Below are positions 1,632 to 34,464 of a stretch of DNA of 64,000 nucleotides, one piece after another. The stretch spans positions 3,185,001 through 3,249,000 of the forward strand of contig JAQPZY010001549.1 of the NCBI GenBank assembly GCA_029931535.1, written 5' to 3'. Under the pieces are notes generated by a model. The model did not search any database. It saw only the letters and a program-made list of their open reading frames with translations, and was not told the DNA's origin. Source of the DNA: Margaritifera margaritifera (taxonomy: Eukaryota; Mollusca; Bivalvia; Unionida; Margaritiferidae). The position numbers and the translations under genes were made by a program. Every line of letters begins with the position of its first letter. Position 1 is the stretch's first letter.

Positions 1632-2560
1632 GATGCAGAGAGAGAAAGAGGAGAGAGAGATGCAGAGGTAGATAGACGAAAGGGAAATGCAATTTTATTT
1701 AAGAGAATTAGAACTGGCAAACAGAGCACCACCACCTCCCTTTACACACAAGTTCAGCTTATGATGTTGCCAGATATATTAGGTTAGTACCCCCTTTTCA
1801 GGAAAAAGATGTAGATAAATACTTTCTTCACTTTGAGAAAATTGCTGAAAACTTAAAATGGCCCAGAGAGCATTGGACTTTGTTAATACAAAGTGTACTT
1901 ATTGGCAAAGCTCGTGAAGTCTACACTTCACTGTCAGTACAACAACGCACTGATTATGATGTGGTTAAGGAGTACATCTTGAAAGCTTATGAGTTGGTAC
2001 CTGAGGCATATCGACAAAGGTTTAGGAATTGTAGGAAAGAAACTGGACAAACTTATGTCGAATTTGCATAGGAAAAAGAACAACAATTTGAAAGGTGGTG
2101 CTCAGCCAAGAAAGTTGATCAAGATTATGATAACCTCAGACAGCTCTTATTAATTGAAGAGTTCAAGAGGTGCATCCATGGTAATGTTAAGACCTATCTT
2201 GACGAGCAGAAAGTGGAACCTTTGGAAAATGCTGCTCGTATGGCTGATGATTATTCCTTGACGCACAAAATTTCATATGGCAAAAAGTCTTCCTCTCAGC
2301 AGTTTTCTGGTAAAAAAACCCATTTCAATCTCGTATAAGTACTTCCAAATTTCATAACAGCACAACTGTTAGGAATCAAACATCTGCTAAGACTGATCAG
2401 AAATCTGTATCTCTTCCTACGTGCACTTATTGTAAAATGAAAGGGCACGTCGTTTCTGATTTCTTCAAGTTGAAAAATAAGCAACAGAGTAAAGACAGAG
2501 CTTTTCCGAATGCTCTTATTTCAAAGAGGTCAAGGTCACGGTCTTGTATTTAAAGCAATA
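1360..2560 (+). pseudogene. Gag pseudogene, SCAN-like, with zinc knuckle remnant
   Basis: The frame opens near 1360 with MRKDELLELARKYSLSESKS, a short N-terminal helical segment that element 2 also has. A Glu/Arg-rich stretch then coincides with a (GA)n expansion at about 1590-1627. From about 1795 to 2330 there is a helical Gag core with VPEAYRQRFRNCRKETGQTY, typical of SCAN-like Gag. The zinc knuckle near 2422-2470 reads C-x2-C-x4-H, but the fourth ligand is phenylalanine instead of cysteine. Several stops (for example just after the 2071 region) and frameshifts interrupt the frame. Confidence 0.85.
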
Positions 2561-2598
2561 CATTTTTTGAGTCAAACAAACCCCAGTTTGATTATATT

Positions 2599-3006
2599 TT
2601 GGAGACTTATGAACCATTCATGTCAGAAGGTTCTATATCACTTTTTGGTGATTCTGCCAAGCCTATCCCAATTAAATTATTAAGGGACACAGGAGCTTCT
2701 CAGAGTCTTTTATTATCAGGTACTTTGCCTTTGTCTGAGGAGTCTTCTTCAAGTGAAAGTGTTCTTTTTCAGGGAGTAGAGTGCGGCTTTGTAAATGTTC
2801 CCCTTCATTGCGTCAATTTGGCATCAGATTTAGTTTCCAGACCTGTGACTGTTGGGGCAGTGACTTCTTTACCCGTAGAGGGTGTTCATTTATTACTAGG
2901 CAATGACCTAGCCGGAGATAAGGTTGTGGTCAATCCACTTGTAACTGACAAGCCTTGTTTGGATCAGAAAGTTGATCATGTCGAAATTGAAATCCCTGAT
3001 TTGTAA
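2599..3006 (+). pseudogene. Retroelement aspartic protease region
   Basis: This open stretch of about 135 codons carries IKLLRDTGASQSLLL, in which DTGA is the retropepsin catalytic motif, followed by a hydrophobic segment ending in LLLGNDLAGDKVV. In the element it would release Gag and Pol products. The same region is open for about 143 codons in element 2 (17297-17728), so it is one of the better-kept parts of both copies. It lies directly ahead of integrase, not RT. Confidence 0.85.
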
Positions 3007-3030
3007 CCTGCTTGTGCAGTTACCAGAGCT

Positions 3031-3414
3031 ATGGCAAAAAGAGCCCTTGAGAGTGATGTTGATCAGGATATTATTTCTTTAGCTGACACATGTATTAGTC
3101 AGTCTTTTGATGAGGTCACTTTTTCCACAGGTATTGATCAATCAAACGGTATTGATCACAGTGATTCTCTTTTGACAACTCATTCTCTTTATTCTAATCA
3201 GGGTGACAAACGACAATCACTTGTCGTTGAACAGGAACAAGATCCCGAGATATTCTGTTTGTTTCAGAGGGTTATTAGTGAAACTGAAGCCACACAAGTT
3301 CCAGTGTGTTACTTTGTGAAAAATGGGGTCCTTATGAGACTATGGAGACTACCTGAGGTACCCGATGGTGACGAGTGTTCAGTGAGATATCAAATTGTTG
3401 TTGCTAAAAAATGA
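3031..3414 (+). pseudogene. Protease-integrase linker of element 1
   Basis: About 127 open codons follow a stop at the protease end. The first half is acidic and Ser/Thr-rich. The second half (CYFVKNGVLMRLWR) resembles the N-terminal lead-in of Ty3/Gypsy integrases. The frame is lost just before the zinc-binding cysteines of integrase, at about 3415. It is part of the polyprotein, not a separate gene. Confidence 0.6.
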
Positions 3415-4300
3415 TGTTTCTAAATACTGCAGATCTTGTCACACTTGTCAAATGGTAGGAAAACCCAATCAGAAGATACCTAAGGCTCATCTGCAACCTA
3501 CTGTATTCCTGCATTTGATGAACCATTTGGTGGAATAATGGTAGACTGTGTCGGTCCTTTACCTAAGACCAAGTCAGGCAACCAATACTTGTTGACCATC
3601 ATGTGTGCATCTACAAGATTTCAAGAGGCAATTCCTCTGAGAAATATAAATTTTATGTCTGGAATTTTCCAATAAGTTATGTATGAATTAGTCATCCAAC
3701 AGTTTAAATGTTCTGCCTATCACCCTGAAAGTCAAGGTGCTTTGGAAAGATTTCATCAAACTTTGAAGAATATGATTCAATCATATTGCTTTGATACAGG
3801 AAAGGACTGGGATGAGGGTGTTCATTTGTTGTTGTTTGCTGTTAGGGAATCAGTTCAAGAGTCATTGGGTTTTAGTCCCTTTGAACTGGCTTTTGGACAT
3901 ACTGTCCATGGACCAGTGAAATTATTGAAAGAGAAACTTCTTTCAAATGAAGATTAAAAGATTAATCTTCTTGACTATGTCTCAGATTTCAAATATAAGT
4001 TGTCAAAGGCCTGTGAAGTCGCAAGAACTAATCTTCACACTACCCAGTCAAAAATGAAATTAAGGTACGACAGAAATACACAGGAAAGGAGTTTTAAACC
4101 TGGTGATAAAGTTCTAGCTCTCTTTCTCATACCTCAAAATCCGCTTCAGGCTTAATTTTATGGTCCTTGTACCGTTGAAAAGAACGTAAATTACTTAAAT
4201 TATATCATTAACACCCCTGGGAGATGGAAACAGATACAAATTTGTCATATAAATATGATAAAGGAATATTTTGACAGAGACAGCCCAGCTAATTATTCAG
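3407..4300 (+). pseudogene. Integrase pseudogene, catalytic core internally deleted
   Basis: The cysteine half of the HHCC zinc domain survives as CRSCHTCQMVGK near 3427. The first catalytic aspartate lies in MVDCVGPLP near 3540, and the glutamate in SQGALERFHQTLK near 3735. Compared with element 2, about 100 bases are missing near 3650, and with them the middle catalytic aspartate. The C-terminal part to about 4290 keeps a recognisable RSFKPGDKVLA block in broken frames. Integrase inserts the cDNA into the genome; this copy cannot. Confidence 0.85.
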
Positions 4301-4486
4301 TTAATTTAGTTGTACCTGTCCCACACAGTGAAGATATCAACAATGGAATACAATCAGACTATAGTGACTCTGGTATAACCAATGTTCGGAATTCATAAAT
4401 ATTGAACAATCTGGACCAAAAACTGTCACATATACAACAACAGGAAAGAAAATGAACTAAAACAGCTATTACATGACTATGAACAC

Positions 4487-5789
4487 TTGTTTCCTGATCC
4501 CACACGAACAAGTAAAATCTATCATGATGTTGACATTGTAGATTCTGCACCTGTGAAACAGCATCGTTATAGGATGAATCCTCTCAAACAGAACTATCTG
4601 AAGAAAAAAAGTCAGTATTCACTGGAGAATGATTTTATAGAACCATGTAAAAGTAACTGGAGTTCACCATGTATTCTTGTTCCTAAGCCAGATAATACAT
4701 TCCGCATGTGTACTGACTATAGAAAAGTCAACAGTGTCACCAAAACGGATTCATTTCCAATCCCAAGAATGGAAGATTGCATTGATAAAATTGGAAATGC
4801 GAAATATGTCACCAAGTTTGACCTTTTAAAAAGATTCTGGCAAATTCCACCGATGGAAAGGGCAAAAGAAATTTCAGCATTTGTAACTCCAGATAGACTT
4901 AATCAATATAAAGTCATGCTGTTTGGAATGAAAAATTCTCCTGCAACGTGTCAACGTCTGATTAACATGATAACATCTGGTCTTGATAATAGTGACGTGT
5001 ATGTCGATGACATCACTTTCTACAACAACACCTGGGAAGATCACTTGGAAACCATTTGGAAATTCTTTGATCGACTCTGATGATTAATTTGAGCAAAAGT
5101 GAGTTTTGCCATGCTTGTGTCACATTTGTAGGACATATTGTGGGACAAGGTCAAGTTAAACCTATAGAAGCTAAGGTCAAAGCTATCTCTGAATTTCCGG
5201 TACCAATTGGTAAAAAGCAACTGATGCGATTTTTAGGTATGGTTGGATATTATCGGAAATTTTGTTCAAATTTGTCCATAATTGCTGAACCTTCAACAGG
5301 TTTACTGGGTAAGAAAACCAAATTTAATTGGGCTGACAAGTGTCAGGAATCTTTTGACAAGTTAAAGGCCATGCTTAAGAATGCACCAGTGCTTTCTACA
5401 CCAAATTTCAGTCAACCATTTAAATTATCTGTTGATGCAAGTGATGTAGGGGTCAGTGGAGTATTGATTCAGGAAGACAAAAGTGGTGTGAATCACCCTG
5501 TGTGTTATTTTTCTAAAAAACTTAACAAACACCAGAAAAATTAATCCACAATTGAGAAGGAATGTTTGGCTTTGATATTGGCTTTACAGCATTGTGAAGT
5601 GTATGTTACCTCAGCTCTTCCTCCAATTATTGTGTACAGTGATTACAATCCCCTTACTTTCATCAAAAAAATGAAAGATAAAGATCGGAGATTGTTGAGA
5701 TGGAGTTTAATATTGCAGGAATAGAACATTTACATCAGACACATCAGGGGAAAAGACAATGTGATTGCAGATGCACTCTCACATGCTTA
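4487..5789 (+). pseudogene. Reverse transcriptase and RNase H pseudogene
   Basis: The RT frame (4487-5080) has KFDLLKRFWQIP, FGMKNSPATCQR and the catalytic YVDD box in DVYVDDITFY. At 5077-5085 a short deletion shifts the frame; the thumb and connection continue at 5080-5544 with INLSKSEFCHACVTFVGH. RNase H begins at LSVDASDVGVSGVLI. It is cut by an in-frame TAA at about 5542 where a tyrosine codon is expected, then continues through IEKECLALILAL to a C-terminal GKDNVIADALSHA and a stop near 5789. Being downstream of integrase, this domain sits at the 3' end of the element. Confidence 0.9.
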
Positions 5790-7622: not shown

Positions 7623-8993
7623 TCATATGTCACACTTCAATGCTTTTTCGCCAGTATGTATCCTCATGTGCTTCTTCAAGTTTCCGCCCACACGAAATAT
7701 TTTATCACAAACTTCACACTTATATGGTTTTTCTCCAGTGTGTATCATAGTGTGATTTTTCAGATGTCCACTTACACGAAACATTTCATTACAAACTTCA
7801 CACTTGAATGGTTTGTCTCCAGTATGTATCATCAGGTGCACCTTCAGAGGTTCACTGCTACTAAACATTTTATAACAAACTTCACATTTAAATGGCTTTT
7901 CTCCAGTATGTATCCTCATGTGCACCTTCAGAGACTTCCTCTGTGTTAAGCTTTTATCACATACTTCGCACTTAAATGGTTTTTCTCCAGTATGTATCCT
8001 CATGTGCTTTTTCAGATTTCCATTCAGGCTAAACATTTTAGCACAAACTTCACACCTGTAGGTTTTCTCACCAGTGTGTATCATCATATGCACCCTCAAA
8101 CCTCCACTTCTACTAAACATTGCACTACACACTTCACATTTGAATGGTTTTTCTCTAGTATGTGTGCTCGAATGCAATTTCAGACTTCCACTCCTACTAA
8201 ACATTTCATTACAAACTTCACACTTAAATGGTTTTTCTCCTGTATGTATCGTCATGTGCTCTTTGAGATGTCCACTCCTCCTAAACATTTCCGCACAAAC
8301 TTCACATTTAAATGGCTTTTCTCCGGTATGTATCCTCCTGTGTATCTTCAAACATTCGCTCTGTCTAAACCTTTTATCACATACTTCACATTTAAATGGT
8401 TTTTCTCCAGTATGTATCGTCATATGCTTATTCAAATGACCAATCAAACCAAACATCTGCTCACATAGTTCACACTTAAATGGTTTTACACCAGTACGTA
8501 TCCTTATGTTCTTTTTCAGATGAAACAGTTCATCAGAATTTTCACACTTAAATAATTTTTCTCCAGAATGTAACGTCATGTGCATCTTCAGCGGTCCACT
8601 CCTACTAAACATTTCATCACAAACTTCGCATTTAAATGGCTTTTCTCCAGTATGTATCCTCATGTGTACCTTCAGGCATTCACTCTGTCTAAACCTTTTA
8701 TCACATACTTCACAATTAAATGGTTTTTCTCCAGAATGTATCCTCGTGTGCTTCTTTAGATGTCCACTCTCACGAAACATTTCATTACATACTTCACACT
8801 TAAATGGTTTTTCTCCAGTATGCATCCTCATGTGCCTCTTCTGACTTCCACTTTGACTAAACATTTCATCACATACTTCACACTTAAATGGTTTTTCTCC
8901 AGTATGTATCCTCATATGTATCTTGAGACAGCCACGCACTTTAAACATTGCATTACAAACTTCACACTTAAATTGTTTTTCTTCTGTATGCAT
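7623..8993 (-). CDS. C2H2 zinc-finger array, 16 fingers, probably a gene fragment (locus A)
   Basis: The 457-residue open frame is made of tandem C2H2 fingers joined by HTGEKPFKC linkers. I count 16, with typical cores such as CEVCDKRFRQSECLKVH. Fifteen keep both cysteines and both histidines. The sixth is decayed: one cysteine is serine (CENSDE), the finger is shortened, and its final histidine is arginine. Such arrays bind DNA in a sequence-specific way in the nucleus. The frame opens inside a linker (MHTEEKQF), with no N-terminal effector domain or upstream exon that I can see. It ends at TGA exactly where the second cysteine of finger 17 should be, and recognisable fingers continue beyond. 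I therefore think this is a truncated or pseudogenised copy, though a shortened functional protein cannot be excluded. Confidence 0.75.
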   Translation of the reverse strand: MHTEEKQFKCEVCNAMFKVRGCLKIHMRIHTGEKPFKCEVCDEMFSQSGSQKRHMRMHTGEKPFKCEVCNEMFRESGHLKKHTRIHSGEKPFNCEVCDKRFRQSECLKVHMRIHTGEKPFKCEVCDEMFSRSGPLKMHMTLHSGEKLFKCENSDELFHLKKNIRIRTGVKPFKCELCEQMFGLIGHLNKHMTIHTGEKPFKCEVCDKRFRQSECLKIHRRIHTGEKPFKCEVCAEMFRRSGHLKEHMTIHTGEKPFKCEVCNEMFSRSGSLKLHSSTHTREKPFKCEVCSAMFSRSGGLRVHMMIHTGEKTYRCEVCAKMFSLNGNLKKHMRIHTGEKPFKCEVCDKSLTQRKSLKVHMRIHTGEKPFKCEVCYKMFSSSEPLKVHLMIHTGDKPFKCEVCNEMFRVSGHLKNHTMIHTGEKPYKCEVCDKIFRVGGNLKKHMRIHTGEKALKCDI

Positions 8994-8999
8994 CCTCAA

Positions 9000-9390
9000 T
9001 ACAGCGCGCTTATATAATTTAAACGGGGTTAAGAAACGGAATACGGAACTCAGCGTATTATGGAACGGAAAACGGAACGAAACGGATATTATAGCTCATC
9101 ATTATTGTAAATATATGTAACGCAAGCACCGTCTACCTTTCATACTATATTTACCATGATTTTTCGTAACATACCCGACACGGGCGCCCTTGTGTGAATA
9201 GTTTACTAGCATGTCCGACATAAATGGTGAAGTGTAGAGATTTTATAATAACATTAATATTGAATAAGTAAAAACAAGATGAATATACTAATCAACGTAA
9301 AATGACCATTAAAATTAAAAATAATTTTACAGGTTGTTTTTTTAAATTTTTTTTCGTAATTATTATAAATCTTGAAATCAGAGTTCAAAC
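9000..9390. other. No gene recognised
   Basis: This interval follows the 5' edge of zinc-finger locus A. Near 9050-9090 there is a short degenerate run of GGAACGGAAAACGGAACG-like words. The remainder is AT-rich with no supported coding frame. Confidence 0.55.
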
Positions 9391-16025: not shown

Positions 16026-17200
16026 ATGTCATCTAAGGTGGAGAACTTTGATTCAAGTCCTACCCAGTTAGGGTATGAAAAAGGACGAGTTGGTTGAGCT
16101 TGCCAGACATTATGATCTTTATGAAGCGAAAGCGTCTTTTACAAAGCAAGAGATAAATAATATTTTAATTCCATATTTGGTGGGAAAGGAAATTTTGGAT
16201 AATAGTATTTTGGGGTTTAATTGATAAGTATGTATCTGGTTTTGATGGGAAATTAAGGGAATTACAGCTATAAAAAAACCCAGATGAAATTAGAATTAAG
16301 AAAGCTTCAGCTTCAGAAAGAAATGATGGAACTACAAATTCAGAAAAAAGAGAAGGAGAGGGAAATACAAATACAGAGATAGAAAGAGGAGAGGGAATAC
16401 AGATGCAGAGAAGAAAGGGAAATGCAATATAAATTAAATGAATTAGAACTGGCTAGTGGAGCACGACCACTACCCACCTTTACACACAAGTTCAGGTTTT
16501 GATGTTACCAGATATATTAGGTTAGTACCCCCTTTCAGGAAAAAGTAGATACATACTTTCTTCACTTTGAGAAAACTGCTATTGGCAAAGCTGGTGAAGT
16601 CTACCCTTCACTGTCAGTACAAAAAACACTAATTATGATTCGGTTAAGGAGTACATCTTGAAGGGTTATGATGTGGTACCTGAGGCATATCGACAAAAGT
16701 TTAGAAATTTTAGAAAGGAAACTGGACAAACTTGTGTCGAGTTTGCAAGGGAAAAAGAACAAATATTTGATAGGTGGTGCTCAGCCATAAAGGCTGATCA
16801 AGATTACGATAACCTCAGACAGCTCGTGTTAATTGAAGAGTTCAAGAGGTGCATCCATGGTGATTTCAAGACCTATCTTGACGAGCAGAATTTTGCAACT
16901 TTGGAAAATGCTGCTCGTATGGCTGACGAATATTCCCTGATTCACAAAATTGCATTTGTTAATAAGTCTTCCTCTCAGCAGTTTTCCGGTAAAAAAAAAA
17001 CCCATTTCAGTCTCATGCGAGTACTTCTAAATTTCAAAACAGCACAACTGCTGGAAATAAAACATCTGATAAGACTGATCAGAAATCTTTATCTCTTCCT
17101 ATGTGCACTTATTGTAAAAAGAAAGGGCACGTCATTGCTGAATGTTTCAGGTTGAACAATAAGCAGCAGAATAAAGACAGAGCTATTCTAAATGCTCTTA
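16026..17200 (+). pseudogene. Gag pseudogene of element 2, SCAN-like with intact zinc knuckle
   Basis: The likely start is ATG at 16026 (MSSKVENFDSS), followed after a frameshift by KKDELVELARHYDLYEAKAS. A Gln/Lys/Glu-rich helical stretch follows. The SCAN-like core lies at about 16658-16960 with VPEAYRQKFRNFRKETGQTC. The zinc knuckle near 17104-17145 is complete as C-x2-C-x4-H-x4-C (CTYCKKKGHVIAEC), unlike element 1. Stops occur near 16220 and 16275. In the element this would be the capsid protein that packages RNA. Confidence 0.85.
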
Positions 17201-17296
17201 TTTCAAAGAGGTCAAGGGCACGGTCTTGTATTGAAAGCAATACAATTGTTGGGTCAAACAAACCCTGATTCTATTTAGGACACTTATGATCCATTC

Positions 17297-17728
17297 ATGT
17301 CAAAAGGTTCTATATCACTTATTGGTGATTCCGCCAAGCATATCCCTATTAAAATATCAAGGGACACAGGAGCGTCTCAGAGTCTTTTGTTATCAGGTAC
17401 TTTGCCTTTGTCTGAGAAGCATTCTTCTGCTGAAAGTGTACTTATTCATGGAGTAGAGTGCGGCTATGCAAATGTTCCTCGCCATTGTATCAATTTGGCA
17501 TCAGACTTAGTTTCTGTACCTGTGGCAGTTGGGGCAGTGATGTCTTTACCTATAGAAGGTATCCATTTGTTACTAGGCAATGACCTAGCTGGAGATAAGG
17601 TCGTGGATAATCGACTTGTAACTGACAAGCCTTGTTTGGATCAAAAAGTAGATCATATTGAGATTGAAATCCCTGATTTGTATCTTGCTTGTGCAGTAAC
17701 CAGAGCTATGGCAAAAAAGAGCTCTTGA
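17297..17728 (+). pseudogene. Aspartic protease region of element 2
   Basis: The open stretch of about 143 codons carries IKISRDTGASQSLLLSG with the DTGA catalytic motif. It continues past the point where element 1 has a stop, into YLACAVTRAMAKKSS. A frameshift follows at about 17728 and the linker to integrase (17740-18050) is broken. Confidence 0.85.
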
Positions 17729-18059
17729 GAGTGATGTTGATCAGGAAATTATTCCTTTAGCTGACACATTTATGTGTCTTTTGACGAGGTCCCTTTCCCT
17801 CCTGATATTGATGAATCAAAAGGTATTGATCCCAGTGATCCTCGTTTTACAAGTCAATCTCTTTATCAGGATGACAAAAGACAATCACTCGTTGTCTTAC
17901 AGAAACAAGATCCTGAGATCTCCTGTTTTTTTTCAGAGGGCTATTAGTGAAACGAAGCCACACAAGTCCCAGTGTGTTACTTTGTGAAAAATGGGGTCCT
18001 TATGAGAAAATCGAGACCACCTGAAGTGCCCGCTTTGCCGAGTGGTCAGTGAGCTATTA

Positions 18060-19145
18060 AAACGTGGTTCCGAGGTCATATCGACAGGAAATTCTTAGTC
18101 TATCCTATGAAATTCACTTGGCTGGTCATTTGAGAGTCAATTAGACTTATCACAAGATCTTGAATCACTTTTATTGGCCGAAACTTCAAAGTGATGTTTC
18201 CCAACTCTGTAGATCTTGTCACAGTTGTCAAACGGTAGGAAAATCCAATCAGAAGATACCTAAGGCTCATCTGTAACCTCTTCCTGCTTTTCAAGAACCA
18301 GTGAGTAGAATAATGGTAGATGGTGTCGGTCCATTGCTTAAAACCAAGTCAGGCAACCAATACTTATTGACCATAATGTGGGCATCTACAAGATTTCCAG
18401 AGGCAATTCCTTTGAGAAATATTAAAACTAAAACCATTGTAAAAGCGTTGGTAAAGTTTTTTTTTTACACTTGTTGGCCTTCCCAAATCTGTCCAGTCGG
18501 ATCTAGGGTCCAATTTTATGTCTGGAATTTTCCAACAAGTTATGCATGGATTAGGCATCTAACAGTTTAAATCTTCTGCCTATCATTCTGAAAGTCAAGG
18601 AGCTTTGAAAAGATTTTATGAAACTTTGAAGAATATGATTCGGTCATATTGCTTTGATACAGGAAAGGATTGGGATGAGGGTGTTCATTTCTTGTTGTTT
18701 GCTGTTAGGAAATCAGTTCAAGAATCATTGGGTTTCAGTCCCTTTGAACTGGCTTTTGGACATACTGTCTGTGAACCATTGAAGTTTTTGAAAGAGAAAC
18801 TTCTTTCAAATGAAGATTCAAAGATTAATCTTTTTGACTACGTCTCTGATTTCAAATATAAGTTGTCAAAGGCTTGTGAAGTAGCAAGAACTAATCTTCA
18901 CTCAACTCGGTCAAAAATGATATGAAGGTATGACAGAAATACACAGGAAAGGAGTTTTAAGCCTTGTGATAAAGTTCTGGCTATCTTTCCCAAACCTCAA
19001 AATCCTCTTCGGGCTACATTTTATGGTACTTATACAGTTGAAAAGAAATTAAATGACTTAACTTATATCATTAACACTCCAGGGAGGCAGAAACAGAAAC
19101 AATTTTGTCACATAAATATGTTAAAGGAATATTTTAATCTCTGAA
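18060..19145 (+). pseudogene. Integrase pseudogene of element 2
   Basis: The HHCC zinc domain is visible across frames near 18110-18240: HLAGHLRVN, then HFYWPKLQSD, then CRSCHSCQTVGK. The first catalytic aspartate lies in MVDGVGPLL (about 18320) and the second in QSDLGSNFMSG (about 18495-18530), which element 1 lacks. The third position reads ALKRFYETLK near 18605, with lysine where glutamate is required. The C-terminal part ends near 19145 with HINMLKEYFNL. Frames shift in a poly-T near 18460. Confidence 0.85.
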
Positions 19146-28962: not shown

Positions 28963-29690
28963 GAATATTCACACTGAAATAATTTTTATCTAGAATGTAT
29001 TGTCATGTGCGTCTTCAGCGGTCCACTCCTACTAAATATTTTATCACAAACTGCACATTTAAATGGTTTTTCTCCAGTATGTATCCTAATGTGCAGCTTG
29101 AGGTATTCACTGTCTCTGTAACTTTTACCACATACTTCACACTTAACTGGTTTTTCTCCAGAATGTATCCACATGTGTCGTTTCAGAGACCTCTTCGCAG
29201 TAAAGCTTTTATCACATACTTCGCACTTAAATGGTTTTTCTCCAGTATGTATCCTCATATGATTCTTCAGATTTGCATTCAGATTAAACATTTTACCACA
29301 AACTTCACATCTGTTGGTTTTTTCACCAGTATGTATCCTTATGTGCTTCTTCAGATTTCCATTCCGACCAAAAATTTTACCACAAACTTCACATCTGTAT
29401 GTTTTTTCACCAGTATGTATCAGCATGTGCATCCTCAAACGCCTACTCTGGCCAAACACTGCATAACACACTCCACATTTGAATGGTTTTTCTCCAGTAT
29501 GTGTGCTCGAATGCAATTTCAGACTTCCACTCGTACTAAACATTTCATTACAAACTTCACATTTAAATGCCATTTCTCCAGTATGTATCCTCATGTGTAC
29601 ATTGCAACATTTGATGACAAAACCTTTTATCACATACTTCACATTGAAATGGTTTTTCTCCAGTATCCTCGCGGTATCACTTTCGAAGCC
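28963..29690 (-). pseudogene. Zinc-finger locus B, 5' segment with seven intact fingers
   Basis: The open stretch 28986-29642 encodes seven complete C2H2 fingers, from CEVCNEMFSTSGSLKLH to CAVCDKIFSRSGPLKTH, with standard HTGEK linkers, and a partial frameshifted finger before them. It has no ATG-led N-terminus. It stops at HSR plus a stop codon, whereas locus A reads HSGEKLFKCENSDE. The remaining finger bases run on to 28963, and beyond the MITE they resume at 26827. The last finger matches finger 5 of locus A. It is the N-terminal side of the same broken gene. Confidence 0.88.
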
Positions 29691-30129
29691 CTTAAGAAGA
29701 AATCGCGGAATAATTCGTAAACAATGTAAGTTTTATTAAAAGTTCATTTGCACTTTTTGAATGATCGTTATAAAATTACTGAAAGCCATAGCTTCGAACT
29801 ATTTATGGCCGCTGACCTTTGTTTATTTATGCGTATCCGTATCCCTTACCTTTTTTATAACGTCATCTGTTTCGGAGCGGTTCATCACAGCACCACTCGC
29901 GGCCATCGTAGACATGATAAAAGACATGTATGGCGGCACAAACTGGCAACAATAGTGAACATAACAATTGTCATATTAATATGAATCAATATTTATCTTT
30001 CTTATTGTATTTCTATCTCTTCTGCTTAGTTTTATTAACAGAAAAGAAGTAACAAACGTTGATGGATATTTTTTTAAGCTGGTTCAAAAAGAAAATGTAA
30101 CTATTAACTTCAAAATTAGGCGAAAAACA
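29691..30129. other. No gene recognised
   Basis: Two overlapping plus-strand frames of 60-80 codons exist at 29748-29984, but they have no recognisable motif and no supporting context. The remainder is AT-rich. Confidence 0.55.
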
Positions 30130-30462: not shown

Positions 30463-30562
30463 CCTCAAAAGTGTTTATAGCCTCAAAAGTGTTCATAGCC
30501 TCAGAAAGGTTTATAGCCTCAAAAGTGTTATAGCCTCAAAAAGGTTTATAGCCTGAAAGTGT
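30463..30562. repeat. Minisatellite, about 20-bp period
   Basis: Five to six copies of AGCCTCAAAAGTGTTTAT with small indels. A partial version of the same word, GAGCCTCAAAGATG, appears just to the left at about 30403. Confidence 0.85.
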
Positions 30563-30626
30563 TTATGGGGTAGAAGTGTTGATGGGGGCAGAAGTATTTT
30601 AGACGGACAGAAGTGACACATACATC

Positions 30627-30680
30627 TAACAAAAAAACAAACAAACAAACAAACAGACACATAGACAAACATAGACAAGT
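30627..30680. repeat. (CAAA)n-type simple repeat
   Basis: An A-run followed by CAAACAAACAAACAAACAGA and related ACATAGACAAA words. Confidence 0.85.
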
Positions 30681-30717
30681 TATTGGCAATTTGATTTATT
30701 TTCTAAAAGATGTGGGT

Positions 30718-30733
30718 GGCCCTGAAAAGGGCC
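30718..30733 (-). terminator. Histone-type 3' stem-loop, minus strand
   Basis: On the minus strand the sequence is GGCCCTTTTCAGGGCC: a perfect 6-bp stem with loop TTTC. It is preceded by AACCAAC and followed by ACCCACATC. Both the stem-loop and the flanking A/C-rich 5' side and ACCCA 3' side match the signal that ends replication-dependent metazoan histone mRNAs, which are cut without polyadenylation. It lies 78 bases past the stop of the small minus-strand frame at 30812. Confidence 0.85.
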
Positions 30734-30811
30734 GTTGGTTTTTTTGGTTAACCAAGTTAACAGATATCACACCTCTTGGAGGGTCTTCTTCTCCTTAAGC
30801 TTCAACGTACT

Positions 30812-30973
30812 TCAGGTCCGTAGAGGAGCACCCGCTTCAGACACCCTTGTCTCTCTATATAGATCCTTCCGTTCCAAAGAGCTGTATCTGTCATCTTGGT
30901 GATAGCTCATGAAGCTTTCACGTACATCGGATAGTTTGGGTTGAAAAGCATACCCGATACGATCGATGATGAT
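30812..30973 (-). CDS. Small unrecognised reading frame ending before a histone-type stem-loop
   Basis: The frame is open from 30973 to a TGA at 30812-30814. It includes an ATG at 30910 that gives a 32-residue charged peptide starting MSYHQDDRYSSLERK. In another frame, an open stretch containing GMLFNPNYPMYVKAS ends in TGA overlapping that ATG, so the correct upstream frame is uncertain. An (AT)n tract at 31019-31098 lies where the 5' half of the gene would be. I do not recognise the product and it is not a core histone. The support is positional: the stop-to-stem-loop distance is typical of histone mRNAs, and the plus-strand neighbour has the same layout. Confidence 0.45.
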   Translation of the reverse strand: MIIDRIGYAFQPKLSDVRESFMSYHQDDRYSSLERKDLYRETRVSEAGAPLRT

Positions 30974-31015
30974 TCAACATCTTGTGAACAGGTGAAGCTA
31001 TGTGACAAAAGGGCT

Positions 31016-31018
<3 letters not shown>

Positions 31019-31098
<80 letters not shown>
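31019..31098. repeat. (AT)n microsatellite
   Basis: About 80 bases of AT repeat lie between the divergent promoter region and the small minus-strand frame. It may have expanded inside the 5' part of that gene. Confidence 0.98.
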
Positions 31099-31100
<2 letters not shown>

Positions 31101-31132
31101 TAAGAGCTGATCGAAACGGATCGAAATGAAAC

Positions 31133-31262
31133 ACCAATCCAAAGGCGCGTTACAACAGGTAGGGTCTCTCTTCCAATCAGAAGAGAGCAGGGGGGTCACG
31201 TGACATTCAGTATATAGGGTTCACAAGGTTCGTATTGTTTTATCTTTTGCGGCATTTTGAGT
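31133..31262 (+). promoter_or_regulatory. Apparent Pol II promoter between divergent genes
   Basis: In order, on the plus strand: CCAAT at 31134-31138, CCAAT at 31173-31177, TCACGTGAC with a CACGTG E-box at 31197-31202, and TATATAGG at 31211-31218. The ATG of the plus-strand gene follows at 31263. Box order and spacing are those of a compact TATA promoter. Paired CCAAT boxes between divergent genes are also usual in histone gene pairs. No transcription start is directly visible. Confidence 0.6.
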
Positions 31263-31850
31263 ATGGCTGATACAACGAAGACGATGGATTGGGGTGAGCC
31301 TGCGACAGAAAGTTCTTGTGTTCGGCGAATGCAGTCGTCAGCCTTCAACCAGAAGATTTTAATTTGGATTTTGTGGACTTTCTGTCGTCGCAAGAATTTT
31401 TGCCTGAAACAACCGCTGTTGTACCACCACCATCTTTACCCGTGGTAGACGATTTTAAAAAGAGACAGAAAGAAGAATTTGAAAAATTGTTTGCAACGTC
31501 AGAGAGAAGCAGAAGAAGCATTTCTTCAGCAAGAAGAGGAAAGAAGAAAGCAAGAAGAAGAAGAGAAAAGAAGAAAGCTAGAAGAGGAGATGTGTGAAGG
31601 ACAGAAGGAAGGAAGTAGTAACAATCTCACGGTGAGTCTGTTACAAGATATTTTAGCCGAGTTAAAGAATCTGAGAGACATGTATCAGATTTCTTTAACA
31701 CAACTCAAGAGAAAGAGACCCTCACTGGCTAAACATTCTAAGCCCATCACTACTACTGAGATGCTACCACCACCACCATCACCATTGACTACTACTACCA
31801 CTACCAAAGCAGCAGCAGCAGCAGGAGGAGTAGGACTTGGTCGTGGATAG
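31263..31850 (+). pseudogene. Unrecognised gene with coiled coil, ending in a histone-type stem-loop
   Basis: The frame starts at ATG 31263 (MADTTKTMDWGEPATESS), 45 bases after the TATA box, and ends at TAG just after GGVGLGRG. From about 31316 to 31480 the protein-like reading is one frame over, an acidic stretch containing FNLDFVDFLSSQEFLPE. It then returns to the original frame with a Glu/Lys/Arg-rich coiled coil (QQEEERRKQEEEEKRRKLEE), LLQDILAELKNLRDMYQ, a basic patch (LKRKRPSLAKHSKP), and Pro-, Thr- and Ala-rich runs. Two compensating frame changes mean either small indels in a dying gene or sequence error. The product of about 195 residues is not a histone and I do not recognise it. The acidic, coiled-coil and basic layout would suit a nuclear regulatory protein, but that is a guess. 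Confidence 0.5.
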
Positions 31851-31918
31851 GGATTGAGACAGTTAAGACTCATTATGTCCAGTCCATAAGTCTGTTTAAA
31901 AAAAACCCCACCCCAAAC

Positions 31919-31934
31919 GGTCCTTTTCAGGGCC
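31919..31934 (+). terminator. Histone-type 3' stem-loop, plus strand
   Basis: GGTCCTTTTCAGGGCC forms a 6-bp stem (one G-U pair) with a TTTC loop. It is flanked by CCCCAAAC on the 5' side and ACCCAGATC on the 3' side, matching the histone mRNA end signal. About 15 bases downstream, AGAAAAGAAAACA is purine-rich like the histone downstream element that pairs with U7 snRNA. It lies 68 bases after the stop of the gene ending at 31850. Confidence 0.87.
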
Positions 31935-32137
31935 ACCCAGATCTCTAGAAAAGAAAACAATGTCATTGCCAAATCAAGTAAAACTTTAAATCGCATCATT
32001 GGATTGTGTAAGAGTGCGTCCGTGCGTCCATACTCTAAAATAAAAACCAAAAGACACTTACTTTTTTCCATTTTGGTATATTCTCTTTTTAAAAAATCAC
32101 AATGAACATTTCATAACACATCACTCAAGTTAATAGT

Positions 32138-32452
32138 TCACTGTCTGTCTCTTTTCTTAAATTTCTTCACAGGTATCAAGGGTTCTTCTTCTTCTTTACT
32201 GCCGTCCAGTCATCTTACCTTTTTACATTTCTTGACGACGGGGATGAGTCCTTCTTCATCTTATGGCGCTGAAGCTCCCTCCCTCTCTTGTTTGTTCTCT
32301 TGTTTCTTAGGACACGCTGAAGACCAATGTCCTTTTTCTTGACAATGATAACACTGGTCTACAGCCAAAATGCTTCCGCAATAAATGTTGTCAAACTTTA
32401 TTAATTCTGGGTCGCAGAGAACGAAAATGATGCTTAAAATTGTTGATTGGCT
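32138..32452 (-). pseudogene. CCHC zinc-knuckle protein remnant
   Basis: The minus-strand frame enters after a TAG at 32455, which also fits a 3' splice site. It reads VLCDPELIKFDNIYCGSILA, then CYHCQEKGHWSSAC, a perfect C-x2-C-x4-H-x4-C knuckle, then a charged tail. A TAA at 32261-32263 and a later TGA interrupt it, but the same frame continues with two similar basic blocks, LIPVVKKCKK and LIPVKKFKK, to a final TGA at 32138-32140. Zinc knuckles bind single-stranded nucleic acid. I cannot place the family; it does not resemble the Gag knuckles of the Gmr1-like elements here beyond the ligands. It lies tail-to-tail with the stem-loop gene. Confidence 0.6.
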
Positions 32453-32860: not shown

Positions 32861-33640
32861 ATGCCTCGTACTTGTGTGAACAATGCAGATAACTTCTGCT
32901 ATGTTTGTGGTGAAGTGACTTTTGCATCACAAAAGCGCAGTATAGCTACTATGGTTAAGAAAGCCTATCACCTTTATTGTGGCTGCAAAATTGGAGATCA
33001 GGACAAGATGTGGGCCCCACACATATGCTGCAACGCTTGTGCAACAAATCTTCGCCAGTGGTTGAACAGGAAAAGGAAATCTATGCCTTTTGCAGTGCCA
33101 ATGATTTGGAGAGAGCCAACATATCATATCAGCAATTGTTACTTCTGCATGGTGCCTCCAGTTGGAAAAGGTGTGTCAAAGAAGAAAAAGTGGACTGTGC
33201 ATTATCCAAACATTCCATCAGCTATACGCCCAGTACCCCACAGAGAAGGACTGCCGGTTTCTGATGCACCAGAATCATTCTCACTTGAGTCAAACGAGGA
33301 AGAGGAAGAGGATGAAATTTCTAGTCCTGAACCATCAATGTCACATGACCCATATCTTCTCCCATTCTCCTCCTCTGAACCACACCTCATAACACAAGGT
33401 GAACTGAATGACCTTGTCAGGGATTTGGAACTACCCAAGAGTAAGGCATAGCTCCAGACTACAGCAATGGAATCTCCTGGCAGGTGATGCTAGGTTTTCC
33501 ATGTTTCGTGACCGTCAAAAGGATCTTGTCTCATTCTTCTCCATGGAAGGTGATCTTGTTGCCTGCAACAACATCGATGGTGTGATGGCAGCCCTCAACA
33601 TCGTTCATGATCCAGATGAGTGGAGACTGTTCATTGATTG
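32861..33640 (+). pseudogene. Uncharacterised invertebrate Cys-rich protein family, frameshifted and truncated
   Basis: The frame starts at ATG 32861 with MPRTCVNNADNFCYVCGEVT and continues through CCNACATNLRQWLN, MPFAVPMIWREP and NCYFCM. The paired cysteines suggest zinc binding. A Glu/Ser-rich stretch follows. At about 33446-33452 a short deletion ends the first frame just after LELPKSKA; the reading resumes one frame over with SRLQQWNLLAGDARFSMF and runs to DPDEWRLFID near 33640. From memory this matches a large family of unnamed proteins in hydrozoans, arthropods and other invertebrates, usually several hundred residues longer. After 33640 the sequence changes to unrelated DNA. The family may travel with a mobile element, but no ends are visible here. 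Confidence 0.7.
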
Positions 33641-33658
33641 GAAGGTGTGGTTTCAGGT

Positions 33659-33802
33659 TCAATCATCTCCTCTTCGAAATCGCTGGCATGGACTTGGGCT
33701 CGCACTTAAGCTAGAGGCGTATGAGGCGGCACAGAAAGTCGACGTCGTGGCCATCTTCGTTTCTCCTTCTGTTTTCTCACTGAAATCGCGTGATCGTTTC
33801 AT
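33659..33802 (-). CDS. Small basic reading frame, left side of a divergent pair
   Basis: The frame begins at ATG 33800-33802 (MKRSRDFSEKTEGETKMATT) and stops at 33659-33661, giving 47 residues. It has a basic start and a Ser/Ala-rich middle, and ends CQRFRRGDD. The ATG lies about 45 bases from the TATA-like core at 33848-33857, read on this strand. I do not recognise it. It may have been cut off by the junction near 33640, where the Cys-rich family fragment begins. Confidence 0.35.
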   Translation of the reverse strand: MKRSRDFSEKTEGETKMATTSTFCAASYASSLSASPSPCQRFRRGDD

Positions 33803-33840
33803 CTTGATGTCTAACTTGGATCTGATTGAGTTTTACACAG

Positions 33841-33866
33841 GCTCTCTCTATATAAATAGAGAGAGC
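33841..33866. promoter_or_regulatory. Palindromic TATA element, possible bidirectional promoter
   Basis: GCTCTCTCTAT and ATAGAGAGAGC form an 11-bp perfect inverted repeat around ATAA. The centre reads TATAAATA on the plus strand and TTTATATAG on the minus strand, so a single core could serve both directions. Short open frames diverge from it, with ATGs at 33802 (minus) and 33916 (plus). Confidence 0.4.
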
Positions 33867-33915
33867 TTCCTATCCTCAGAGTAACTATTCGTTATTCAAC
33901 TTTCACGCTGATAAG

Positions 33916-33954
33916 ATGGAAGAGTCAAGACAGATGAATGCAGATGGGCAATGA
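33916..33954 (+). pseudogene. 5' stub of a gene cut by the tandem array
   Basis: ATG at 33916 starts MEESRQMNADGQ and a stop. The last codons already belong to the array, which begins at about 33944 with ATGGGCAATGAAGG. The ATG is about 60 bases downstream of TATAAATA. The visible part is too short for any family assignment; it is listed because its layout mirrors the 31263 gene. Confidence 0.3.
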
Positions 33955-34464
33955 AGGCTTGTATGCAAAATCTTGTCCGAATCTGGTCCGAAATATGGCT
34001 CAGAAAATGGAAGATTACAAATAGGTCCACTATTTTAAGTATCATGTATCAAACTCTAATACAACAAGCTCACCCGATTCCCACGTAGAATGGAGCAGGA
34101 ACATTTTGGGTGTGTTAGAACTGCTTTTCCTCCTACTACTTACGATAGTGCTTTTTCATCAGGCATTATTGACAACTTTAGCCTGAAATGGGGGTAGAAA
34201 AGACTTCCATTTCCCAGAGATTCTCGCTCTGTCCGCTGCTGAGAGGTGTGAAAGACGACGTACTTCACTTGGCTATGACAAATGGTCAGGCCGAAAAGAG
34301 TAGAAATTGGGCTAAATTTTTTTTTTTTTGAAAAACACAGGATGAATTTTGTGTGCTGGCCTCTTGTTACCTTAAGACACAACCTGTTATTACTTTTGGC
34401 TAGAATGGGAAATGTGTTCCAGGCTGAGCTCAGTATTACAGATAGATCCTAGTGTATCACATAT

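Follow-up and report, generated by a model that had tools for sequence, protein, structure and literature searches.

Histone-type 3′ stem-loops behind small non-histone genes of a Polinton/Maverick-type element in Margaritifera margaritifera

Organization of the locus

The window analysed here is a stretch of 64,000 nucleotides from the genome of Margaritifera margaritifera (GenBank assembly GCA_029931535.1, contig JAQPZY010001549.1, positions 3,185,001 to 3,249,000 of the forward strand). Close to its centre, two small genes, A and B, point away from a promoter-like block, and each is followed by a histone-type 3′ stem-loop (Table 1). The two hairpins, GGCCCTTTTCAGGGCC on the minus strand and GGTCCTTTTCAGGGCC on the plus strand, are present exactly as the initial annotation had described them. 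They are the only two matches to GGYYCTTTTCAGRRCC in the 64 kb when up to two mismatches are allowed, a number that was reached in 2 of 100 shuffles. The minus hairpin exceeds the gathering score of the covariance model RF00032 (E = 2.1e-8 over the whole window), while the plus hairpin falls below it (E = 9.7e-6 in a 3.5-kb search). Both hairpins are real, and both have ACCCA and then a purine-rich stretch downstream. Since the minus hairpin stretch is an 81% inverted match to the plus one over 42 nt, the two are not independent events, contrary to what had been supposed. In a 257-Gb bacterial and archaeal collection, 29 stretches match GGYYCTTTTCAGRRCCACC and are taken as chance; a search of viral contigs with GGYYCTTTTCAGRRCCACCCA gave no match.

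Neither gene is intact. Gene B has two in-frame stops and lacks a start at the usual place, and gene A runs through three frames in turn. The stop of gene A lies 68 nt before its hairpin but is premature, the frame continuing in relatives, and the stop of gene B lies 23 nt before its own. The spacing of about 70–80 bases that had been given for both does not hold for gene B. The activity that had been proposed for the pair is not supported, both genes being broken.

The fragment that carries the two genes spans about −758 to +1090 relative to gene A in blastn alignments to other copies. Its CCHC zinc-knuckle gene is also present in those copies, and the small inverted piece further along the window corresponds to about +1299 to +1593. 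Searches of the 64-kb window for the element’s polymerase, packaging ATPase and BIR genes gave no match at E 1e-6, so the window holds a broken fragment.

Elsewhere in the window, a large tandem array fills positions 34000–64000, its units being about 1.52 kb long and containing 112-bp subrepeats. An open frame at 32861–33451, probably another mobile element, has 555 relatives at E ≤ 0.001; among the matches listed, those with a name come from arthropods, vertebrates and a tunicate. Retrotransposon-like polyprotein pieces lie at 1712–5544 and 16598–18925, one of them with a weak Retrotrans_gag match below the cut-off, and long arrays of C2H2 zinc-finger repeats, named by their repeated motif, lie on the minus strand at 7623–9095 and 28986–29732.

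Table 1. Features of the locus, with positions in the window
Feature	Position	Strand	Basis
Polinton/Maverick-type element fragment (genes B, A and part of the CCHC gene)	30505..32353	plus	blastn to copies L068–L083
Histone-type 3′ stem-loop of gene B	30694..30738 (hairpin 30718–30733)	minus	RF00032, 40.3 bits, cut-off 34
Gene B, broken	30760..30978	minus	tblastn with the L080 gene B frame, 79% identity
Promoter-like block between genes A and B	31134..31217		sequence
Gene A, broken	31263..31850	plus	three different open frames in turn, premature stop at 31848–31850
Histone-type 3′ stem-loop of gene A	31914..31958 (hairpin 31919–31934)	plus	RF00032, 29.8 bits
Remnant of the element’s CCHC zinc-knuckle gene	32141..32362	minus	zf-CCHC, 26.6 bits with stops written as X, cut-off 20.8
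Small inverted piece of the same element	33639..33935	minus	blastn, up to 90% identity to copies

Copies and relatives of the small genes

The genome searched for copies was the window’s own, of 2.45 Gb. With the three open pieces of gene A joined by X as the protein query, nine proteins were found that match its full length at 44–50% identity (E 3.0e-41 to 2.8e-33), all on contigs of 925–1688 bases. Their source labels (lgn, jgi and ena) are taken to be those of read-archive and metagenome assemblies. The nine align well among themselves. One of them, P0009, extends beyond the usual end of the protein, with extra residues that would fit the translation of such a hairpin and its flank. When a single-frame piece of gene A was used as the protein query there was no match, and relatives of gene A sought in viral contigs gave none. 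The intact relative P0006 finds gene A on many contigs of the mussel genome, the best 150 of 6832 candidates being 45–57% identical to it; 66 of these 150 best-scored matches are without a stop by hand count.

Gene B encodes a basic protein of 77 residues and is present in 41 of the 43 distinct loci examined; L032 and L033 have no gene B within their 3 kb. Genome-wide, 124 of the best 150 of 5063 candidates for gene B are stop-free (hand count). A third gene, C, of about 200 residues, occurs in a second subfamily described below, and the best 150 of its 4370 candidates were retained. Its copies are mostly open. Seven of them, at different places, have the same score of 338.3 bits, which suggests that the element spread recently.

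Among stop-free copies, dN/dS is 0.34 for gene A (9 copies, 36 pairs, range 0.20–0.79) and 0.18 for gene B (11 copies, 55 pairs, range 0.07–0.54), while a shift of the frame by one base in the same alignments raises the values to 1.17 and 1.24, respectively. By this comparison, both A and B are real proteins kept by selection. A codon-position (RNY) test gave the open frames no advantage; simple repeats distort this test, and it was set aside. The predicted structure of the gene B protein is poor (pLDDT 40.6) and unusable. For gene C, four long helices are predicted with a mean pLDDT of 80.0, and this model has no match in viral and PDB fold libraries at E ≤ 0.001.

Identity of the element

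Ten-kb stretches were taken around 16 copies of gene A (L068–L083), of which 12 are also among the 30 loci used for the hairpin survey below. The longest stretch common to the copies extends between about −830 and about +5200, counted from gene A, the latter being the edge of the DNA compared, in pieces that are about 70–92% identical by blastn. The frames downstream of gene A belong to a viral-type, putatively protein-primed DNA polymerase B, with scores of 27.0 and 38.4 bits for PF03175 (DNA_pol_B_2; cut-off 25.8). The N-terminal part of the polymerase is found in 15 of the 16 loci; in the 16th, L071, a packaging ATPase follows gene A in its place. A copy of the same ATPase gene, in L088, scores 33.7 bits for PF04665 (Pox_A32; cut-off 22.8) and lies 3.5 kb beyond a polymerase copy. 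Such an ATPase is known as a Polinton gene. The end of L088 has a 92-residue frame that presumably resembles the start of a Polinton integrase; searches of this piece against Pfam, NCBIfam and PDB were without a match. Genes with a BIR (inhibitor-of-apoptosis) domain lie downstream of the polymerase in L087 (184–1231) and also in L069, L072, L076 and L082. Across the genome, 118 polymerase matches were scored out of 10,636 candidates, with open frames of up to 1406 residues, and polymerase relatives sought in viral contigs gave none. In L073, a second and more divergent polymerase B stretch is present in inverted orientation to the left of gene B (about −685 to −2333 relative to gene A), and it would belong to a neighbouring or nested element.

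A polymerase of this kind is a Polinton/Maverick gene according to the available text of PMC11071308. The window pair represents a decayed piece of an adintovirus-like DNA element of the Polinton/Maverick type. Like the Polinton/Maverick group (Polintoviricetes, including the adintoviruses), it combines a DNA polymerase B with a Pox_A32-type ATPase, each above its Pfam cut-off, and occurs at high copy number in an animal genome. It differs from that group in two respects: the small genes A to D match no family in the protein-family searches run, and the available texts of PMC11071296 and PMC11071308 mention no histone-type stem-loop in such elements. In these texts the adintovirus preprint PMC11071296 uses “histone” two times, each for a histone-like protein; the word is absent from PMC11071308, and “stem-loop” is absent from both. 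Other kinds of mobile element were considered and dropped once the polymerase B frames appeared.

Recurrence of the hairpins

Thirty gene A loci (L038–L067) were surveyed with RF00032 at E ≤ 0.01 and tallied by hand. A hairpin follows gene A in 20 and gene B in 20, with both present in 14 loci, only one in 12 and neither in four (L049, L056, L058 and L062). All 40 hairpins lie on the coding strand of the preceding gene. When the 3′ ends of the 30 gene A copies were aligned independently of the Rfam model, the six stem pairs were kept in 26, 25, 28, 29, 27 and 29 of them. This alignment is a fairer test than the set of 58 hairpins considered below, since those were chosen by the structure model and their pairing is partly by construction.

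The eight top-scoring hairpin loci of the genome, L030–L037, represent the second subfamily. They contain 16 hairpins, seven after gene C, six after gene B, two after gene A and one, in L032, after a further gene, D. The scores of the copies with RF00032 reach 45.8 bits. All eight loci are copies of the element and none has histone similarity, from which it follows that stem-loop searches in such genomes pick up transposons. The proposal of the initial annotation, that a mobile element or an integrated DNA virus has non-histone genes with histone 3′ signals, is upheld in the form of a high-copy Polinton-type element with hairpins recurring behind the same genes, and other non-histone frames do lie upstream of stem-loop matches elsewhere in the genome.

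The signal belongs to the small genes. Seven of the ten-kb loci have no hairpin at E ≤ 0.01 beyond the ends of A and B, and no locus searched has one beside its polymerase, ATPase or BIR-domain genes. In eight further sources, among them the pieces with BIR and ATPase genes, a single match reached the gathering score, a level at which weaker hairpins would not show; it lies after gene B in L069.

The promoter region recurs as well. Within 230 nt ahead of the gene A match, CCAAT is found in all 30 copies, two CCAAT boxes in 22 and TATA in 29, against shuffled expectations of 11.5, 2.3 and 5.3 of 30, and these boxes cluster near −130, −90 and −53. The window has CCAAT at 31134 and 31173, CACGTG at 31197 and TATA at 31211. 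The CCAAT and TATA boxes of the annotated promoter block have counterparts at similar positions in the copies, while CACGTG occurs in none of the 30 copies (1.4 expected) and is peculiar to the window copy.

Proposed processing of the transcripts

The hairpin is otherwise known in animals on histone messages, and the purine-rich element that follows it serves cleavage through binding of U7. SLBP, which binds the hairpin, is produced mainly in S phase. In intact copies of the element, the small genes near the polymerase (A and B, with C and D in the second subfamily) are single open frames, A and B diverging from the CCAAT/TATA block, and these genes terminate in a stem-loop of the histone type, in most cases with ACCCA and a purine-rich element after it. 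The host SLBP and U7 snRNP would cleave the transcripts past the hairpin, and the resulting mRNAs, carrying no poly(A), would accumulate in S phase because SLBP is made mainly then. Such timing may let the element use the replication environment of the host, and a nuclear DNA element that has a polymerase of its own would be well served by it. We assign a probability of about 0.8 to this reading as a whole, in which the window pair is a decayed Polinton-type fragment and the small genes of intact copies end in a histone-type signal that is processed by the host. What the DNA itself shows is the copies, the linkage to polymerase and ATPase, the purifying selection on A and B and the recurrence and sense orientation of the hairpins. 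A search for U7 RNA gave no match anywhere; it was silent throughout and is uninformative. Overall, the initial interpretation is partly supported.

It is likely, if a little less so than the reading itself, that a virus-like lineage of animal DNA transposons uses the host SLBP/U7 pathway to give the mRNAs of its small genes A, B, C and D ends that lack poly(A), with expression in S phase as a result; these would be the first such non-histone protein-coding mRNAs known in animals. Among titles and the opening lines of abstracts, a literature search turned up no description of histone-type signals in a Polinton, and priority is not certain. If the reading is true, a selfish DNA element would here have evolved to read the replication clock of its host through mRNA 3′-end processing. 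The signal would offer a virus-like element a simple means of tying gene expression to S phase, and its presence on several genes of a selfish element would show that the pathway is open to takeover by non-histone genes. The copies would also be a rich source of natural signal variants on which to test the requirements of SLBP and U7.

Alternative roles of the hairpin and relation to histone genes

The hairpin might bind SLBP for stability or translation only, with the mRNAs being cleaved and polyadenylated at ordinary sites further downstream. An AATAAA is indeed present at about 32039, downstream of the gene A hairpin in the window, and within 400 nt downstream in five of the 30 copies. It is absent from the other 25, though by a rough estimate chance alone would place only about 0.4 in 400 nt, and the purine-rich element is present in most hairpin flanks: 49 of the 58 have a purine run of at least 8 within 39 nt, compared with a mean of 2.6 and a highest value of 9 in mononucleotide shuffles. 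Ordinary polyadenylation further downstream is thus an unlikely fate for these messages.

A second alternative, in which the hairpins serve the element as DNA palindromes, for example in replication or transcription stop, instead of marking mRNA 3′ ends, is more improbable still. The hairpins are palindromic and are found in an element with its own DNA polymerase. Among the 58, however, pair 3 is C-G in 30, U-G in 22 and U-A in six; a U-G pair exists only in the sense RNA and so counts against a DNA palindrome. At pair 4, 51 hairpins have C-G, six have U-A and one is unpaired, and both pairs have changed on both sides. The uniform sense orientation of the 40 hairpins also speaks against a palindrome, as does the histone-specific flank that accompanies them together with the purine-rich element; ACCCA follows the hairpin in 45 of the 58. 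Further downstream, TTGCC is found by 45 nt past the model match in 52 of the 58.

That the hairpins are remains of a decayed divergent pair of host histone genes, with accidental frames, is largely refuted: both match the histone model and the 50 nt past both window hairpins resemble the host H4 3′ region, but histone similarity beyond chance is absent from the window region as from the eight top hairpin loci, purifying selection acts on genes A and B, which also have relatives, and the host H4 genes are intact elsewhere. For the 50 nt past the flank, 4 and 2 of 500 shuffles were as good for the two window hairpins and 130, 133 and 52 of 500 for three other hairpins; the resemblance is clear for the window pair but not for these three. 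A histone gene is a possible ancient source from which the hairpin was captured.

The searches of the window region for leftovers of true histone genes, an origin that the initial annotation had raised against its own proposal, comprised tblastn with five histone proteins, back-translated histone profile HMMs over the window and frameshift-tolerant alignment with 60 resampled controls per case, and none gave anything beyond chance. A decayed H4 seen by eye in the minus region had no support from any of the three; this region is accounted for, because gene B matches there. Judged by these comparisons, the window genes encode no histone.

The element shares with replication-dependent animal histone genes the single open frames, the CCAAT/TATA promoter, the downstream purine-rich element and a short gap between stop and stem-loop, which measures 17 nt in gene C of L030 and 23 nt in gene B of the window. 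In contrast to histone genes, its proteins are unrelated to histones, its genes are dispersed on a mobile element and not gathered in tandem histone arrays, and its flank is mostly ACCCA, where three host H4 3′ ends have ACACAAA. The adomavirus Histoid proteins, as presented in the available text of PMC11071296, likewise link a virus-like animal DNA element to histone biology, but there it is the protein that resembles histones, whereas here it is the mRNA 3′ signal only.

The search for host H4 found 27 matches; 16 lie on three contigs, arranged as tandem arrays with a unit length of about 8 kb. At three H4 3′ ends, hairpins of 34.4–36.1 bits are followed by ACACAAA. The host-type H4 hairpin pattern occurs 49 times in the genome, 38 times on the three H4-array contigs, and the reversed control pattern occurs 0 times.
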